22,102 bases of DNA from a virus, in IMG/VR virus record IMGVR_UViG_3300020446_000091, positions 1 through 22,102 of that record; one strand, 5' to 3'. The notes beneath the pieces are model-generated. The model saw only the letters and a list, made by a program, of their open reading frames with translations. It had not been told where the DNA came from and searched no databases. Below are positions 3,493 to 12,549 of this stretch, in pieces (position 1 is the first letter of the stretch; every line of letters starts with the position of its first letter). Both the position numbers and the translations under genes were made by a program.

Positions 3493-3766
3493 TTTTTTTC
3501 GTACGTACTTCAGCGTGTTTGCCAACGAACTTCTCCCATTTTTCTCTGATCTCGGGGGATGACCAAAGCACCTTCTCAACACTTGCATTGCGTACACCAC
3601 CTCGCTTGCACTTACGTGGGAACTCAATGCGGTACTTCAGTGATGTGTTGTGAACAGCTTGTCTGCTCACTCCCATCAGCCTTGCGGTTTCTGATTTAGT
3701 GAAACCTCTGTCAGCCCACACTTTGTATGTTGACCAATGATGGCCCTTCTTAAATGGATGTGTCAT
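3479..3766 (-). CDS. Small helix-turn-helix DNA-binding protein
   Basis: A 95-residue basic protein with an HTH near residues 18-45 (RGFTKSETARLMGVSRQAVH), of the resolvase/regulator type. The rest (EKVLWSSPEIREKWEKFVG) is a short helical tail. The start ATG at 3766 overlaps the upstream stop as ATGA, indicating coupled translation with the 222-residue gene. The neighbourhood of integrase and attachment site suggests a regulatory or directionality role, but nothing in the sequence fixes that. Possible excisionase-like or repressor function; target unknown. Confidence 0.65.
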   Translation of the reverse strand: MTHPFKKGHHWSTYKVWADRGFTKSETARLMGVSRQAVHNTSLKYRIEFPRKCKRGGVRNASVEKVLWSSPEIREKWEKFVGKHAEVRTKKIVHH

Positions 3767-4431
3767 AAGTCACCCATATCCAATGCGTAGATTATCTTTG
3801 CGACGCTGCCGAGCTTGAACTTCTTTACTTCGGCTGCTGCCAACGTACCCTCTCTATGAAGCGTGGCGCACCTCGCACCTATGCGGTCATAGATCGCTCG
3901 TTGATCCAAAGACATTTCTTTTAGTAGCACCTTGTCGTAACCTGTTACGCACCAGAATATCTCCGAATACGTCATTCGTTGATGCTCTTCCAAAGCAGTG
4001 AAGATTATCTCGTCCAGTTCTGGAGTAGATATATCAGTCAGGTCATCAGTTGTGATGTCCTCGTTGTCATCTATTACATCCTCAACTTCGTCTTCGTCTC
4101 CAAAGACTACGGGAGGTGGTGACACCTTACGTTCTGCGTCCGTCACTTTATTCGCCAAACTAATGACGTTTGTTTCGACTTCTTCATCCGTGCCGACAAT
4201 AGTCAGCACCATGTTTGGACACACACGAACCATTGATGGAACGTTAGGAACAATGACACAATTGATTTGGTCATACTTGTTAAGGTTATGCTGGCTTACA
4301 AGCTTCTTTGGAATGTAAGCGTTGAAGTAATTTTTATCTGTACAGTACGCTCCACCAGCAGGTAGAACGTGATTTACCATCATCATTTTTGTATTTATTT
4401 TTGTCTGCATGGCACACTCGTTGTTTGACAT
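3763..4431 (-). CDS. Hypothetical protein with acidic linker
   Basis: A 222-residue protein I do not recognise. About 115 N-terminal residues of mixed strand/helix character are followed by a very acidic linker (GDEDEVEDVIDDNEDITTDD), then a C-terminal helical part (TYSEIFWCVTGYDKVLLKEM…) that may be a winged-helix-like domain. The start is ambiguous: ATG 4431 has no clear Shine-Dalgarno, and in-frame ATGs at 4410 and 4386 are alternatives. It is the first gene of the leftward operon, behind a TATAAT box with palindromic sites at 4463-4483, so it is likely regulated there. Confidence 0.6.
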   Translation of the reverse strand: MSNNECAMQTKINTKMMMVNHVLPAGGAYCTDKNYFNAYIPKKLVSQHNLNKYDQINCVIVPNVPSMVRVCPNMVLTIVGTDEEVETNVISLANKVTDAERKVSPPPVVFGDEDEVEDVIDDNEDITTDDLTDISTPELDEIIFTALEEHQRMTYSEIFWCVTGYDKVLLKEMSLDQRAIYDRIGARCATLHREGTLAAAEVKKFKLGSVAKIIYALDMGDL

Positions 4432-4462
4432 TTGAACTTGAAACGATCTGTCAGTCCTGTTT

Positions 4463-4483
4463 TGACGTCACGTCGTGATTATA
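4463..4483 (-). promoter_or_regulatory. Leftward promoter -10 box with overlapping palindromic operators
   Basis: On the minus strand a perfect TATAAT lies at 4483-4478. The 11-base palindrome TCACG-T-CGTGA (4468-4478, plus strand) shares its last base with that box, and an 8-base palindrome TGACGTCA (4463-4470) adjoins it. No good -35 box is seen, which suits an activated or repressed promoter. It would drive the operon 4431-3066. Confidence 0.5.
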
Positions 4484-4490
4484 TTTTCAA

Positions 4491-4506
4491 ACAACGAAGG
4501 GTCTTG
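4491..4506 (+). repeat. Inverted repeat flanking attP (left arm)
   Basis: ACAACGAAGGGTCTTG is repeated in inverted orientation at 4588-4603 with a single mismatch. The pair brackets the half-tRNA core at 4526-4564 next to the integrase gene, as expected for integrase arm-type binding sites. Confidence 0.55.
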
Positions 4507-4525
4507 CTTTCGGATAACCCCATCT

Positions 4526-4564
4526 TTAGGAGGGGGCTGCTCTATCCAGTTGAGCCACGGGGCC
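4526..4564 (-). other. attP: Candidate attP core: 5' half of tRNA-Arg(CCU)
   Basis: Read on the minus strand from 4564 down, 39 bases have tRNA layout: acceptor strand GGCCCCG, TG, a D-arm with GCTC/GAGC stem and AACTGGATA loop, A, anticodon stem GCCCC, and loop CTCCTAA with anticodon CCT. The sequence then diverges (AGATGGGG…): no 3' anticodon strand in register, T-arm or CCA-proximal acceptor strand follows, so this is not a working tRNA. Tyrosine integrases often use tRNA genes and cross over in the anticodon loop. With the integrase gene ending 82 bases away, this is best read as the phage attachment core, matching a host tRNA-Arg gene. The identity lies in the 5' half, less usual than the 3' half. 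Confidence 0.75.
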
Positions 4565-4587
4565 AGAGGTAAAGCCTTGTATTTCCA

Positions 4588-4603
4588 CAAGAACCTTCGT
4601 TGT
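4588..4603 (-). repeat. Inverted repeat flanking attP (right arm)
   Basis: CAAGAACCTTCGTTGT is the inverted partner of 4491-4506 (15 of 16 bases match). It lies between the half-tRNA core and the integrase stop codon, a plausible arm-type integrase site. Confidence 0.55.
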
Positions 4604-4645
4604 ATGTTTCGATGTCTGCCCGTCACGTACGCAACGGATAGTATC

Positions 4646-5659
4646 TTATAAGACTGCAACAGCCTTGATGTGATCGTCAAGCGTGGTGTTCATATAGCGA
4701 ACAACCATCTTTAGATCTGTGTGTCCGAGTAGGTCAGCGACGACCTTAACAGGGACGTTCTTTCGGCATAGGTTCGTTGCGAACGTATGTCGTAAAGCAT
4801 ACATACCTATATGGTCTGCGATGCTCGTTTGATCTCTGGCTTTTGACCAGAACTTCGACAACTGATTGCTGTCGTATATGGGGCGTCCGTTCACAGTGAA
4901 AACGTTAGTTTGCTGTGGCGGTTCGCTCCACGGTATAACTTTCTTGGCTTTTTCGTGCAGTGGGATCGTACGCGACCTAGTGCCGCCACCTCTGCCCTTT
5001 TTGCTGTGGAGAGTTATCAGGTTACGATGCCAGTCGATGTCGGTAAACTGTAAGTTTATAGCTTCGATCGGTCTAGCACCAGTGTATCTTAAGAATGTGG
5101 CAAACCTACGTACGTCAGGGTGAAGCACCTCAAATATTTCTTCGATCTCTTCCTCCGTCAGTGTGTCCGTGTTGTGCGGATTGTCCGCAGGTTTATCCAG
5201 TTTTATGTAGTCGCAATGCCCAAGCTTTGCGCCAAAGTTAATAATGCTCTGCAAGGCGGTAAGCGTACGGCGTATTGTTCCATCCGTATGACCACGTGCA
5301 ATGTGATAGTCAGCGATGTAATCCTCGATTGCCTCGTGAGTTAGTGACCGTATTGGCATGTCACCGAACTCGTCGATAAATCTCGTGACGAATTGCTGCG
5401 TAGTCTTCGCTCCACCTGTGGATCGACTTCGCAAATACTTTTTAGCGACTGTGCTAAAGGCTGTCTGCGATGCCGAACCTTTTAACTTTGAACTTAGGTT
5501 TACGTGACCATTCAATATGGCCATTTCGTACTCACCTAATCTTTGCTTGGCGACTTTCCTATCTTTGGTATCTAGGCTGTGACGAATACGCATCTTATTA
5601 AACGATCCTTCTGTCCTATACATACCGTTAGGCTCTCGCCTTAATTCTAAAAAACTCAT
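4646..5659 (-). CDS. int: Tyrosine-family site-specific integrase
   Basis: A 337-residue phage integrase that recombines attP with the host attB. An N-terminal arm-binding region and an SAM-like core-binding domain (about residues 65-150) precede the catalytic domain (about 165-330). Catalytic residues visible: R196 (TGARPIEA), a lysine near 220-221 in the beta-hairpin, R290 in YALRHTFAT, H313 in LGHTDL, and the nucleophile Y322 (VVRYMN). The first position of the usual HxxR box is Tyr (Y287), a known variant. ATG at 5659 is preceded by GGAG with an 8-base spacer. It is third in an operon after a LuxR-type HTH gene and a small basic protein, and lies 82 bases from the half-tRNA attachment core, into which it would transcribe. 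Confidence 0.95.
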   Translation of the reverse strand: MSFLELRREPNGMYRTEGSFNKMRIRHSLDTKDRKVAKQRLGEYEMAILNGHVNLSSKLKGSASQTAFSTVAKKYLRSRSTGGAKTTQQFVTRFIDEFGDMPIRSLTHEAIEDYIADYHIARGHTDGTIRRTLTALQSIINFGAKLGHCDYIKLDKPADNPHNTDTLTEEEIEEIFEVLHPDVRRFATFLRYTGARPIEAINLQFTDIDWHRNLITLHSKKGRGGGTRSRTIPLHEKAKKVIPWSEPPQQTNVFTVNGRPIYDSNQLSKFWSKARDQTSIADHIGMYALRHTFATNLCRKNVPVKVVADLLGHTDLKMVVRYMNTTLDDHIKAVAVL

Positions 5660-5662
5660 GGA

Positions 5663-5881
5663 CTATACTCCATGTCCTACTGCGGGTGGGCCTAGGGGAA
5701 CTTTGGGGCTAGTCCAAGCTCGACCTCCAACCCAGTCCGTACTGTGAGAACCTCTCCGTTCCGCACGTATGAACTTAATCCTTGTCTTGTGAACATACGA
5801 CCTAGTAAATTTCCTAGCAACGTAAGCCCACCTATATCTTGGGTCGGCGTTGACTGTATCGACTACTGCGTCGTGCATCAT
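5663..5881 (-). CDS. Small basic protein between regulator and integrase
   Basis: A 72-residue, Arg/Lys-rich protein. Its ATG at 5881 overlaps the LuxR-type gene stop as ATGA and follows GGAGGTGA, a strong Shine-Dalgarno; its end carries the integrase Shine-Dalgarno. This embedding supports translation. The first 45 residues (RYRWAYVARKFTRSYVHKTR) look nucleic-acid binding; the C-terminus is Gly/Pro rich. Position and size would suit an excisionase, but no HTH signature is visible. Confidence 0.55.
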   Translation of the reverse strand: MMHDAVVDTVNADPRYRWAYVARKFTRSYVHKTRIKFIRAERRGSHSTDWVGGRAWTSPKVPLGPPAVGHGV

Positions 5882-6471
5882 TCACCTCCCATGTACTGTA
5901 GTTTGTTTTCTTGTGCGGCATATAAAGGCGCGTATTCATCAGGGACACTTAGGTCTTCCGACCAGTCTAAAGGTAGACCGCCACTTAGTCTCTGATATTC
6001 CTCGGCATCGGCTCTGTTCAAGATGTCTTGTCCGAACATGGCTGCTTGCCCTCTGGTTTTAACGCCAAACTTTTTACATACAGAACGTACGTGTAATTTT
6101 ACTGTGTTCTCTCCGATCCCCATTATAGGAGCTATGTCCTGATTGCGTAGGCCACCTATCAGCAACTGGAGAACGACGTGCTGTTTAGTAGTCATGTTGC
6201 GTAGCAGTGATAGTTCTGCTGCGTTAAGCTCGCCAGCCTTGATGGGGTTTCCGCTGCTGCCGCCGCCTCCCCCCGACTGGCCTATGATGTGATTGAGGAT
6301 AATATCTAGCTTGGCTTCGAGCCTCGCTATATCAAACCTCAAACTTTCGTTCATGTTAGGCATTTCTAGTTGATCCTTGATTGTTAAAGTTAATCTATCG
6401 TTGTCCGATAGTTCCTTATATTTGCGTCGGCGCAAACGATTTGTCAAGTTAGTTTTGTTAAAGTTGTCCAT
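5878..6471 (-). CDS. LuxR-type HTH transcriptional regulator
   Basis: A 197-residue regulator. Residues about 92-148 match the LuxR/GerE HTH: TTKQHVVLQLLIGGLRNQDI then TVKLHVRSVCKKFGVKTRGQA. The N-terminus is a basic segment followed by a short helix (residues 41-63) and a Gly/Ser linker (GGGGGSSG, about 67-74); there is no receiver or autoinducer-binding domain. ATG 6471 has AGAGGGG 8 bases upstream. It leads the operon regulator-small protein-integrase, so control of integration or the lysis/lysogeny choice is likely. Family members activate or repress by DNA binding as dimers; the signal, if any, cannot be read from the sequence. Confidence 0.85.
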   Translation of the reverse strand: MDNFNKTNLTNRLRRRKYKELSDNDRLTLTIKDQLEMPNMNESLRFDIARLEAKLDIILNHIIGQSGGGGGSSGNPIKAGELNAAELSLLRNMTTKQHVVLQLLIGGLRNQDIAPIMGIGENTVKLHVRSVCKKFGVKTRGQAAMFGQDILNRADAEEYQRLSGGLPLDWSEDLSVPDEYAPLYAAQENKLQYMGGE

Positions 6472-9579: not shown

Positions 9580-9981
9580 TCATTCTGGTTTGGATTGGTC
9601 GTCCCGAAGATAGCCCTCTGACTTAAGGTAAGCTATGTAAAAATCCTTCCAATCCTTCAACCGCATAACAACAAGACTGTCTTCCAAACTCTCTCGATTT
9701 CTTCTGGTAATAACGGTTGCGTACTCTGGGCTTTTCGTTGCTTCAACATTTCTTTCAGCTTGTTGTAACGCCTCACGAACATTAAGCCTTTCGACCCGTT
9801 TTGCTTCCACGAATACGCCTGTCGATCCGAGGATGTCTGCACCTCCAGCATGAAGCCCGATCCTCCCACCACCAGATAGCGGTGCTCGTTGGCATTGTTC
9901 GTGTTTGAAAACATATTCATTCATGTACTTTGCGAGATCGTTCTCGTACTTATCGCCCTTAGCTTTTTGTGGATTACCCAT
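9580..9981 (-). CDS. Holliday-junction-resolvase-like nuclease (PD-(D/E)XK)
   Basis: A 133-residue nuclease. ATG 9981 is preferred over the ATG at 10017 because GGAAG stands 6 bases before it and it overlaps the upstream gene end by 8 bases. The motifs run KYENDLAKYMNEY (Glu in the first helix), GGADILGSTGVFVEAKRVE (Asp, then E-x-K), then a helix with REALQQAERN. This matches small phage resolvase/VRR-like nucleases that cut branched DNA during replication or before packaging. Cytoplasmic. It follows a DNA-binding HTH/zinc-ribbon protein. Confidence 0.75.
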   Translation of the reverse strand: MGNPQKAKGDKYENDLAKYMNEYVFKHEQCQRAPLSGGGRIGLHAGGADILGSTGVFVEAKRVERLNVREALQQAERNVEATKSPEYATVITRRNRESLEDSLVVMRLKDWKDFYIAYLKSEGYLRDDQSKPE

Positions 9982-10285
9982 AGTGTTCTTCCCACATATA
10001 GTCGGATGCGTCTTCACGCTCGTGGCATGAGGTGCATCTGTACTGTTGTATTGGTCTTGATTTAGTGCAGCCGCAAATCATGCACGGCCTGTTCCAAACT
10101 TTCGGCTTTGACCTATAGTGGTACTTGGCCCCAGGAAAGTAAGCCAGTTCCATCTTCATCATAATACGTTTTAGTGTGTCCACGCAGCAGCCTAATTGCC
10201 TTGCTAAGTGTGCGTTCGTGAAGTTTGAGTGATTGTCTTTTAACCAATTTGCCTGCTCTGTGGACAACGAAAATCTCTTCGACAT
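9974..10285 (-). CDS. HTH and zinc-ribbon DNA-binding protein
   Basis: A 103-residue protein. The N-terminal half (residues 7-45) is an HTH that resembles sigma-like or homing-endonuclease-associated modules (TEQANWLKDNHSNFTNAHLA, then RQLGCCVDTLKRIMMKM). The C-terminal half has CMICGC and CTSCHE, a CxxC…CxxC zinc ribbon. It starts at ATG 10285 and is the first gene downstream of the non-coding region, so it may be expressed from a promoter there and could regulate the operon that follows. Confidence 0.7.
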   Translation of the reverse strand: MSKRFSLSTEQANWLKDNHSNFTNAHLARQLGCCVDTLKRIMMKMELAYFPGAKYHYRSKPKVWNRPCMICGCTKSRPIQQYRCTSCHEREDASDYMWEEHYG

Positions 10286-10527: not shown

Positions 10528-10576
10528 CTACATTTAAAGGGACAGAATATTCCTCCCAATTTTCTGTACAAAACTT

Positions 10577-10604
10577 AAACCCCCTTCTCCAAGGGGGTTT
10601 TTTT
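10577..10604 (+). terminator. Intrinsic terminator, strongest rightward
   Basis: CCCCCTT (10580-10586) pairs with AAGGGGG (10591-10597) around a CTCC loop, extended by AAA/TTT, and is followed by seven T residues on the plus strand. The leftward primase gene ends at 10603, so the element may also end that transcript, with a poorer U-tract. Confidence 0.8.
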
Positions 10605-12549
10605 ATTGCAGATTAGCGATGTTACTTTGGACGTAGGTTTCTCTCAGATCCTTAGTCCAATCGGCTACTGTGGTTATAGGCTTACCAATTTTTCTAGATA
10701 TTTCCAGATCAGACAATGGTGGCATCACTATGCCCTCACTGTTTCTCCACGGTCTAGCGGCCTTCATTGCCTTCTGTTTTGCTGTGCTCTCGGAAACTAC
10801 ACGCACATTTTGTGTGTTCTCGTCTTCCAAGAAAGCAATATACATAACAGGTTCATGCGTATCACTCCACTCTCGTACCTTACCGTACCTAAGTTCAAGA
10901 CAAACTTGCAGTCTTTCTGTTGGGGTTTTGATCGGCGCAGTGCCAAGCAAAGTCATAGGTGTTCTAGGAAGATCACCGTCATAAATCCCTGCCTTGATCT
11001 CTGCTGTTTGCTTCTCAATATATACTTGCGTAACTTTGATTTGCGTTTCGAGTACGGTCAACTGGTTCGATGACCCTGCCTCCCTGCCTGACCTGCCGCC
11101 ATCAGTGGGTTTATTACTGTGATGTACGAGCATCACTGTGATGCCATTGTTACGTAAAGCAAGGGCAAGCTTATTTATGTTGCCCCACTCTTCTGCACTA
11201 TTTTCCATCAATCCCGACCAAGCTGTACGGATCGTATCAACCACAACTATGTCTGGCTTGTTAAAGTTGATCCAACTTTGGAGGTTGTTAAGGCCGCTAT
11301 CTTCCCGAAGGTTCATCATCCGATCATCAATGAATGGCGTCCATATCATAAAGTTATGCTTGGCGTCACCAAAGGATCTTTTGGAACGGCTCAAAAAATT
11401 TGAGACGTTCTGCTTGCTGTTCTCGAAATCTAAATACAAAACACGGGGCGTCTTGTGTATGTCGTACGGCCCAAAAGATTTTTGACCAGACGCTGCTGCA
11501 TATAAAAGGTGGCGCAAGAACATAGACTTTCCGTGTCCACTGTATCCGTGAACTTGGACAATCGTTCCTGTGTCTGGAATTATCGGATCTACAAAGTATT
11601 TAACCTTGCTCGCTTCATCTGCCAATCTATCTGCATCGAACGTGGTTAAAGGCTTGAACTTAGAGGGGTCTAACTTCGGCTCTTCCTTAACCTTTTTGTC
11701 CTCCTTATTATATGCGTGATCTATTACGCTCTGAAACTCTTTCTGGTTTACCTTGTGAGGTTCGTAAAAAAACTCTTCGACGTAAGCTATCATTTCGATT
11801 TCGCATCGCTCTCTATTATAGCCCTGTGCTGCTAACTCTCCAGCCAGACTTAAAAGCATCTGATGTCTATTGTCGCCAACCCCTGCCATCAAGCGTCTGC
11901 CACTCTTCTCGACAATCTCTCTTGTTGTATCGACTACGCTCTTTTTAATTTTAATGTGCGCAAGCGATAGGTTCTCGAACTTGAAGTCTTCAAACCTAAC
12001 GACGTTGGATGTTTGATTGGCTTGCGATTTTAAACCATAGCTTTTTTCTGGGTACGGAGGTACATCGTCCCAGTCATTGCCAGATAGCTGCGAATAGTTT
12101 GGAGTAGGCGGCACAAGAACAACTCCCTTGTGCGCCTTTCGATCAAGACCTTTGACCGTATCTCTAGGCCACTCGATCCCGTCGGCATTGCTCCAAGTCA
12201 ATGTCTTTATATGACCAGCGTTTGCAGGCCATTTAAAATAGAAGTGCTTACCACGCTTGGTCTTTACAACCCAAGGCGTATTGGTAAGCCCAACGCTTTT
12301 TGCGAACACTTCTGCTTCTTCGTTGTCGCAATCAACAACAAGTACGCCAGAAAGTTCTCCAGTGATTATACCAACATGGGCTTCGGGAAACTTGTCCCAC
12401 CACTCTATGACCTGTTCTTCTGTCGGAAACTTTCCTTCGTCATATATATGGCCCCATTTTGGTGCAGGGTGTTTTTCGTTTGGATGGATTGGTACAACCC
12501 ACCACCCGTCATCTAGCATCTCCAATGCTGTGTTGAGATAGTCGCTCAC
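10603..12549 (-). CDS. Prim-Pol primase fused to RecA/DnaB-like helicase ATPase
   Basis: A 648-residue replication protein. Residues about 1-165 form a bifunctional primase-polymerase domain: VVPIHPNEKHPAPKWG, the catalytic pair D73 and D75 (VVDCDNEEA) and the KHFYF motif at 101-105. After a linker helical region, residues about 315-560 form a RecA-like ATPase: Walker A GYSGHGKS (335-342), LYLDFE with a likely catalytic Glu (376), Walker B IVVVD (D438) and VMLVHHSNK (472-480). This is the RepA/AAA_25-like helicase type. GTG 12549 has GGGAG 6 bases upstream. It would prime and unwind DNA at the phage origin. It follows a Cro/YdaS-like gene that it overlaps by 41 bases. Confidence 0.9.
   Translation of the reverse strand: MSDYLNTALEMLDDGWWVVPIHPNEKHPAPKWGHIYDEGKFPTEEQVIEWWDKFPEAHVGIITGELSGVLVVDCDNEEAEVFAKSVGLTNTPWVVKTKRGKHFYFKWPANAGHIKTLTWSNADGIEWPRDTVKGLDRKAHKGVVLVPPTPNYSQLSGNDWDDVPPYPEKSYGLKSQANQTSNVVRFEDFKFENLSLAHIKIKKSVVDTTREIVEKSGRRLMAGVGDNRHQMLLSLAGELAAQGYNRERCEIEMIAYVEEFFYEPHKVNQKEFQSVIDHAYNKEDKKVKEEPKLDPSKFKPLTTFDADRLADEASKVKYFVDPIIPDTGTIVQVHGYSGHGKSMFLRHLLYAAASGQKSFGPYDIHKTPRVLYLDFENSKQNVSNFLSRSKRSFGDAKHNFMIWTPFIDDRMMNLREDSGLNNLQSWINFNKPDIVVVDTIRTAWSGLMENSAEEWGNINKLALALRNNGITVMLVHHSNKPTDGGRSGREAGSSNQLTVLETQIKVTQVYIEKQTAEIKAGIYDGDLPRTPMTLLGTAPIKTPTERLQVCLELRYGKVREWSDTHEPVMYIAFLEDENTQNVRVVSESTAKQKAMKAARPWRNSEGIVMPPLSDLEISRKIGKPITTVADWTKDLRETYVQSNIANLQ

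Follow-up and report, generated by a model that had tools for sequence, protein, structure and literature searches.

A probable phage attachment site built from the 5′ half of tRNA-Arg(CCU) behind the integrase gene of a CRP-810-related phage

The window analyzed here, a whole IMG/VR virus record of 22.1 kb, carries a tyrosine integrase gene (int) that reads into half of a tRNA gene. This region is very probably an attP, and the phage, a relative of Roseobacter phage CRP-810, would be temperate or at least able to integrate: it would recombine with the anticodon-loop region of the host tRNA-Arg(CCU) gene, strand the host 5′ half and rebuild the tRNA behind int. An attP made of the 5′ half of tRNA-Arg(CCU) behind int had been proposed in the initial annotation. 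The proposal was confirmed by the match of all 39 bases to host genes and by the direction of int, and the positions given there for the half and for the integrase gene (stop at 4646) were right (Table 1).

Table 1. Features at and around the probable attP, with positions in the window
Feature	Position	Strand	Basis
Tyrosine integrase gene (int), 337 aa, reading toward the half	4646–5659	-	PF00589, E 5.5e-24; PHROG integrase, 1.3e-53
LuxR/GerE-type regulator gene, upstream of int	5878–6471	-	PF00196, E 1.4e-12
Conserved gene directly downstream of the attP, same strand as int	3763–4431	-	similarly placed ORF in relatives
Probable attP core, tRNA-Arg(CCU) 5′ half, nucleotides 1–39	4526–4564	-	39/39 host match, no complete tRNA
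Inverted repeat copy, int side; candidate integrase arm site	4588–4606	.	ACAAC motif recurrence
Inverted repeat copy, far side; candidate integrase arm site	4488–4506	.	GTTGT recurrence
Hairpin just past the int stop codon, no U-run	4619–4638	-	stem kept across the window's clade

Read on the minus strand, the half is spelled GGCCCCG TG GCTC AACTGGATA GAGC A GCCCC CTCCTAA and then gives way to AGATGGGG; from the int stop codon onward the order is an 81-base gap, GGCCCCGTGGCTCAACTGGATAGAGCAGCCCCCTCCTAA and AGATGGGG. The half is identical (39/39) to nucleotides 1–39 of the Rhodobacterales tRNA-Arg(CCU) gene, spans the 5′ strand of the acceptor stem, the D arm, and the anticodon stem and loop, and diverges from the host gene at nucleotide 40. 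The tRNA layout first noticed in the letters, ending at the anticodon loop and then diverging, thus held up against host genes. Judged from the sequence, an identity that runs from tRNA nucleotide 1 to the anticodon loop is not chance. ARAGORN found no complete tRNA anywhere in the window, as had been expected of a tRNA finder in this region, and Rfam gave no match at the half, its weak below-threshold matches lying elsewhere in the window only. A strong, terminator-like hairpin (CCCCCTT..AAGGGGG, then a T-run) was noted at 10545–10606 of the window, where several Rfam leader models match below threshold. The tRNA sequence in the attP starts at nucleotide 1, reaches the crossover region and lacks the 3′ part, which is the composition of the 5′-fragment kind of site. 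The host gene that the initial annotation had advised looking for was found: a complete tRNA-Arg(CCU) gene matching the body of the half is present in 98 of 150 Rhodobacterales genomes, at one place per genome. Most of these host genes have the identical GGCCCCG acceptor, many are identical over all 39 bases, and beyond the half they run on as GGGGCAGGTTGCAGGTTCGAATCCTGCCGGGGTCGCCA / GGGGCAGGTT...

The neighbourhood of the half is that of a phage. Behind the half comes a phage gene that keeps its place in relatives, and the site is therefore a free-phage attP, not an attL or attR. An ORF similar to this gene is in the matching place in the viral loci L002 and L003 and, more distantly, in L009 and L019. 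The catalytic domain of the integrase is present, with the LRHTF and GHTD..RY motifs conserved in the alignment of relatives. A LuxR-type gene stands beside int in the same order in L002, L003, L005, L007, L012, L019 and phage CRP-810, and the order LuxR-type gene, int, half tRNA is common to two relatives with 84–85% integrase identity and to distant ones with 33–50%.

CRP-810 is also the best isolate match of the window's primase (36% identity over 97%), giant virion protein (30%) and CobT-like protein (29%), and its integrase has the best E-value among isolates for the window int. By these related replication, virion and CobT proteins, together with the LuxR–int order, the window phage can be classed as CRP-810-type. 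CRP-810 integrates in a tRNA gene, as is proposed for the window phage, but in place of a half it has a 13-bp core and a complete tRNA-Thr that is convergent with int; the published core lies in the middle of the host tRNA-Thr (PMC11288001). In the CRP-810 sequence (L089:3768-3842), the complete tRNA-Thr was seen just after int on the opposite strand, with the short core separate from it. This layout looks like tRNA-dependent lysogeny, which would be a different solution in a related phage. In the tRNA-dependent lysogeny of actinobacteriophages, the function of the host tRNA after integration depends on phage DNA, as is proposed here, but the host tRNA is destroyed and replaced by a whole phage tRNA, whereas the window phage would supply a half (PMC10865867). 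The window, which is part of a phage genome, does not belong to that type, having the 39-base half and no complete tRNA. In pelagiphage HTVC011P (L087:5592-5676), int is directly followed by a complete tRNA-Leu(UAG), and a second copy of the anticodon-loop sequence lies further on; this may be the same whole-tRNA strategy.

The use of a 5′ half extends well beyond the window. An alignment search gave 47 integrase loci, 37 of them with readable downstream DNA, and a 5′ half stands behind int in 33 of these 37 (24 tRNA-Ser(GCU) and 9 tRNA-Arg(CCU)), as counted by hand with near-duplicate contigs included. The halves are all on the int strand and start ~30–100 bases past the int stop, with no complete tRNA among them, and the half is kept behind int across integrases down to ~33% identity. 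A recognisable half was absent in four of the 37 loci (L110, L119, L123 and L126). The integrase of L119 is close to that of L118, and the whole attP interval including the tRNA-Ser half is missing there; the integrases of L123 and L126 are close to that of L125, and a different stem-loop (ACTAGCCCTCTGGCACGGGGCTAGT) takes the place of the tRNA-Arg half, possibly for another target. In the integrase tree, in which some deep branches are weak, the tRNA-Arg users fall on two separate branches and the tRNA-Ser users on others; with three labels, the least number of changes is five, vs 11 in shuffles. On these alignments, the integrase clade has inherited the use of a 5′ half, which its tRNA-Arg(CCU) and tRNA-Ser(GCU) users share.

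Such an insertion site is of a known but uncommon kind. The Islander collection has 3760 islands with a 3′ fragment and 159 with a 5′ fragment among 3919 (PMC4383910), which bears out the earlier remark that elements more often carry the 3′ half. As in the window, the element in a 5′ island carries the 5′ part of the tRNA, and a stranded 5′ fragment marks the far end. The clade is unusual in its consistency since Islander has the 5′ kind in so few islands, vs 33 of 37 loci in this single phage integrase clade. An int gene followed by a tRNA in the same orientation is itself rare, SIT plus OD making up < 8% of 1273 pairs (PMC2951348). The T7-like cyanophages P-SSP7 and S-TIP37, for which integration at tRNA-Leu was shown by PCR (PMC8776855), resemble the window by sequence in having int and then a same-strand tRNA 5′ half that reaches the anticodon loop. 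They differ in the tRNA, in their cyanobacterial hosts and in that no stable lysogens were found for them, and the S-TIP37 integrase is only 25% identical to the window int over 59%. Archaeal pTN3-like integrases also have their attB in the tRNA 5′ half, and the rebuilt tRNA is expressed from the element side, from the integrase promoter; bacterial cases were described as seldom seen (PMC8371274). Unlike the window, these are archaeal mobile elements whose own integrase gene is split on integration. The present phage group was not found described as a 5′-half user within the part of the literature covered.

Integration junctions were sought in host genomes. The Rhodobacteraceae genomes were scanned for the half not followed by GGGG, which gave 11 loci; two of these (L021 and L031) were rejected as stranded halves, being complete tRNAs with GGGA. 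In a Pseudorhodobacter MAG contig (L047), host flank is followed by the 39-nt half and then by 520 bases of phage DNA. The contig is 97.5% identical over 560 aligned bases to the viral contig L012, whose integrase belongs to the window's integrase clade. By this match, the junction is an attL formed by a related phage, at which the host promoter and the host 5′ half have been stranded. Since the contig stops within the prophage, this attL is the sole junction seen for the phage family. The search for attL and attR in lysogens, which the initial annotation had recommended, was thus answered by the attL of a relative, and the attR of this family was not seen. In the same way, the idea that the host tRNA is rebuilt from a phage 5′ half gained support from the host promoter and 5′ half stranded at this attL.

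Other elements were found at the same target. An unrelated 11-kb element in genome G008 has a stranded half, with int placed after it, at one end; at its other end the contig breaks off within a rebuilt tRNA. In G002 and G007 the halves and the complete genes are on separate contigs, and G005 has two halves 8 kb apart. Tandem islands occupy the tRNA-Arg(CCU) 5′ half in G437 (L083:422-460 and 9947-10023), both with TTGACATGT upstream. The G437 island has an intact rebuilt tRNA with GGCTCAG on the element side and CTGGGTC on the host side, and one acceptor stem pair of the hybrid has turned into a U-G wobble. From the matching tandem copy, we infer that the 5′ strand of this tRNA came from the element. 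In terms of sequence, the G008 and G437 cases show that unrelated Rhodobacterales elements also strand the tRNA-Arg(CCU) 5′ half, with an attL/attR pair in one unrelated island.

It is hardly credible that the half in the window plays no part in integration and is a decayed remnant, or host tRNA sequence picked up by chance. Such a reading would fit the finding that an integrase profile (E <= 1e-60), in a search run without a positive control, found no lysogens of the window's clade in 298 Rhodobacteraceae genomes, but it has against it the exactness of the match, the place behind int that is kept across the clade, and the real attL of a relative. In the reading as a functional attP, the tyrosine integrase would act on the anticodon-loop regions of attP and of the host tRNA-Arg(CCU) gene and recombine the two, the crossover presumably falling inside the anticodon loop, and the window phage itself would integrate in this manner. 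At attL, the host promoter and the host 5′ half would be stranded, while at attR the phage 5′ half and the host 3′ half would make a complete tRNA with int as the upstream DNA.

The DNA around the half shows further structure. The half is flanked by an inverted repeat with 17/19 pairs, whose score is above all shuffles of the flanks. The ACAAC motif recurs at tRNA position −38 in the window, L002 and L003 and at −52/−42, ten bases apart, in L009 and L019, and GTTGT is at position +70/+71 in all of these. The repeat copies with these motifs are likely to be integrase arm sites. In phage lambda, sib is a fold in the int transcript that lowers int expression. It is improbable that the flanking repeat acts in a comparable way, folding in the int transcript of the free phage to lower int expression until integration parts the arms. 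Across attP, the int transcripts of the window (z −3.8) and of L019 (z −5.7) fold better than their shuffles, but the fold is weak in L002, L003 and L012 (z −1.8 to −2.5), and in L009 and L019 the ten-base spacing of the tandem copies suits arm sites better. Apart from the putative arm sites, the stem of the hairpin just past the int stop codon is kept with paired changes on both sides in 5/5 members of the window's clade, and the hairpin is absent from most tRNA-Ser phages tested. It was rejected as a terminator for lack of a U-run.

Because the host promoter stays with the stranded host 5′ half on integration, the rebuilt tRNA must have phage DNA upstream. The proposed dependence of the tRNA on phage-side sequence stands to this extent, the host promoter being stranded at attL; dependence on the integrase transcript, the other part of the proposal, was not established. 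For the tRNA-Ser phages, a promoter of their own is indicated. The upstreams of seven non-redundant tRNA-Ser phages are ~36% identical outside two hexamers, with an invariant TTG at −36 to −34, TA at −13/−12 and C at −8 from tRNA nucleotide 1, a register that was spotted by eye before counting, so that the count was not blind. The TTG and TA of native host tRNA-Ser(GCU) genes fall in the matching register. The TTG-17-TA element is most likely a phage-borne promoter, captured or convergent, so the cassette of these phages most likely includes its own host-register promoter. The tRNA-Ser phages need not rely on int transcription since this promoter-like element precedes the half.

No such element was found in the window's clade. 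A promoter model trained on host genes gave no convincing site in the window (p 0.18 and 0.38 in two runs) and weak candidates in two tRNA-Arg relatives, L116 and L094 (p about 0.034); with native tRNA-Arg upstreams withheld from training, this model recovers 63–70% of them at p < 0.05 and misses about a third. A simple scan found no sigma-70-like site in 4350–4800, where no match does not mean no promoter, and no intrinsic terminator was found after int on the int strand. In this clade, the rebuilt tRNA would most likely be made by readthrough from int with 5′ maturation by RNase P, or from a weak unrecognised promoter.

The chances are about even that the phages bring a cassette of promoter and 5′ half, with coupling to int minor, the promoter of the tRNA-Ser clade being clear and that of the tRNA-Arg clade hidden or degenerate. 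The invariant register in the tRNA-Ser phages, shared in its TTG and TA by native genes, argues for this, as does a TTGTTA-16-TATAAT read by eye 19 bases before the half of P-SSP7. The failure to find the element in the window's clade argues against it; moreover, just one tRNA-Ser phage individually reaches p < 0.05 with the host-promoter model, which leaves the conserved register to carry the case. The proposal of the initial annotation, in which the tRNA of a lysogen is made only from the integrase transcript and prophage expression sets the supply of tRNA-Arg(CCU), is possible but doubtful. It is consistent with int running into the half across the short gap, with the window offering neither a sigma-70-like site near the half nor a host-type promoter, nor a terminator in between, and with the conserved post-stop hairpin, which could protect the 3′ end of the int mRNA once the tRNA is removed. 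A parallel is offered by the archaeal pTN3-like elements, in which the integrase promoter is stated to drive the rebuilt tRNA (PMC8371274). Against it speak the promoter-like element of the sister tRNA-Ser clade, the weak candidates in L116 and L094 and the native promoters that the model misses. Integrases are usually little expressed in lysogens, and low int expression would starve the tRNA.

The back-up available to the host also weighs against strong coupling. A tRNA-Arg with CTTCTAA is present in 10/10 host genomes checked by pattern and was called as UCU by ARAGORN in the 3/3 host genomes tested. As tRNA-Arg(UCU) can also read AGG, it is a likely back-up in all ten, and its presence makes the effect on tRNA supply probably small. 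Loss of tRNA-Arg(CCU) may be mild for the host, and the strong link between host tRNA-Arg supply and prophage suggested at first is unlikely. To our knowledge, tRNA-Ser(GCU) is the sole reader of AGC and AGU. We hypothesize that a UCU back-up on one side, and tRNA-Ser(GCU) without a back-up on the other, would fit a promoter being present in the tRNA-Ser phages but missing from the tRNA-Arg phages. A rather unlikely extension holds that one clade has two handovers: the tRNA-Ser users would bring a host-register promoter, and the tRNA-Arg users would obtain the tRNA solely from the end of the integrase transcript, a dependence made tolerable by tRNA-Arg(UCU) reading AGG.

In most tRNA-targeting elements the swap concerns the tail of the gene, and the tRNA promoter stays untouched. 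By exchanging the head instead, a widespread marine phage clade would take over the upstream region of the host tRNA gene. The 5′ halves are missed by tRNA finders, which suggests looking for them in phage genomes. The tRNA-Ser and tRNA-Arg users of this clade, with and without a recognisable promoter, would form a natural pair of designs for asking if host tRNAs can come under prophage control.
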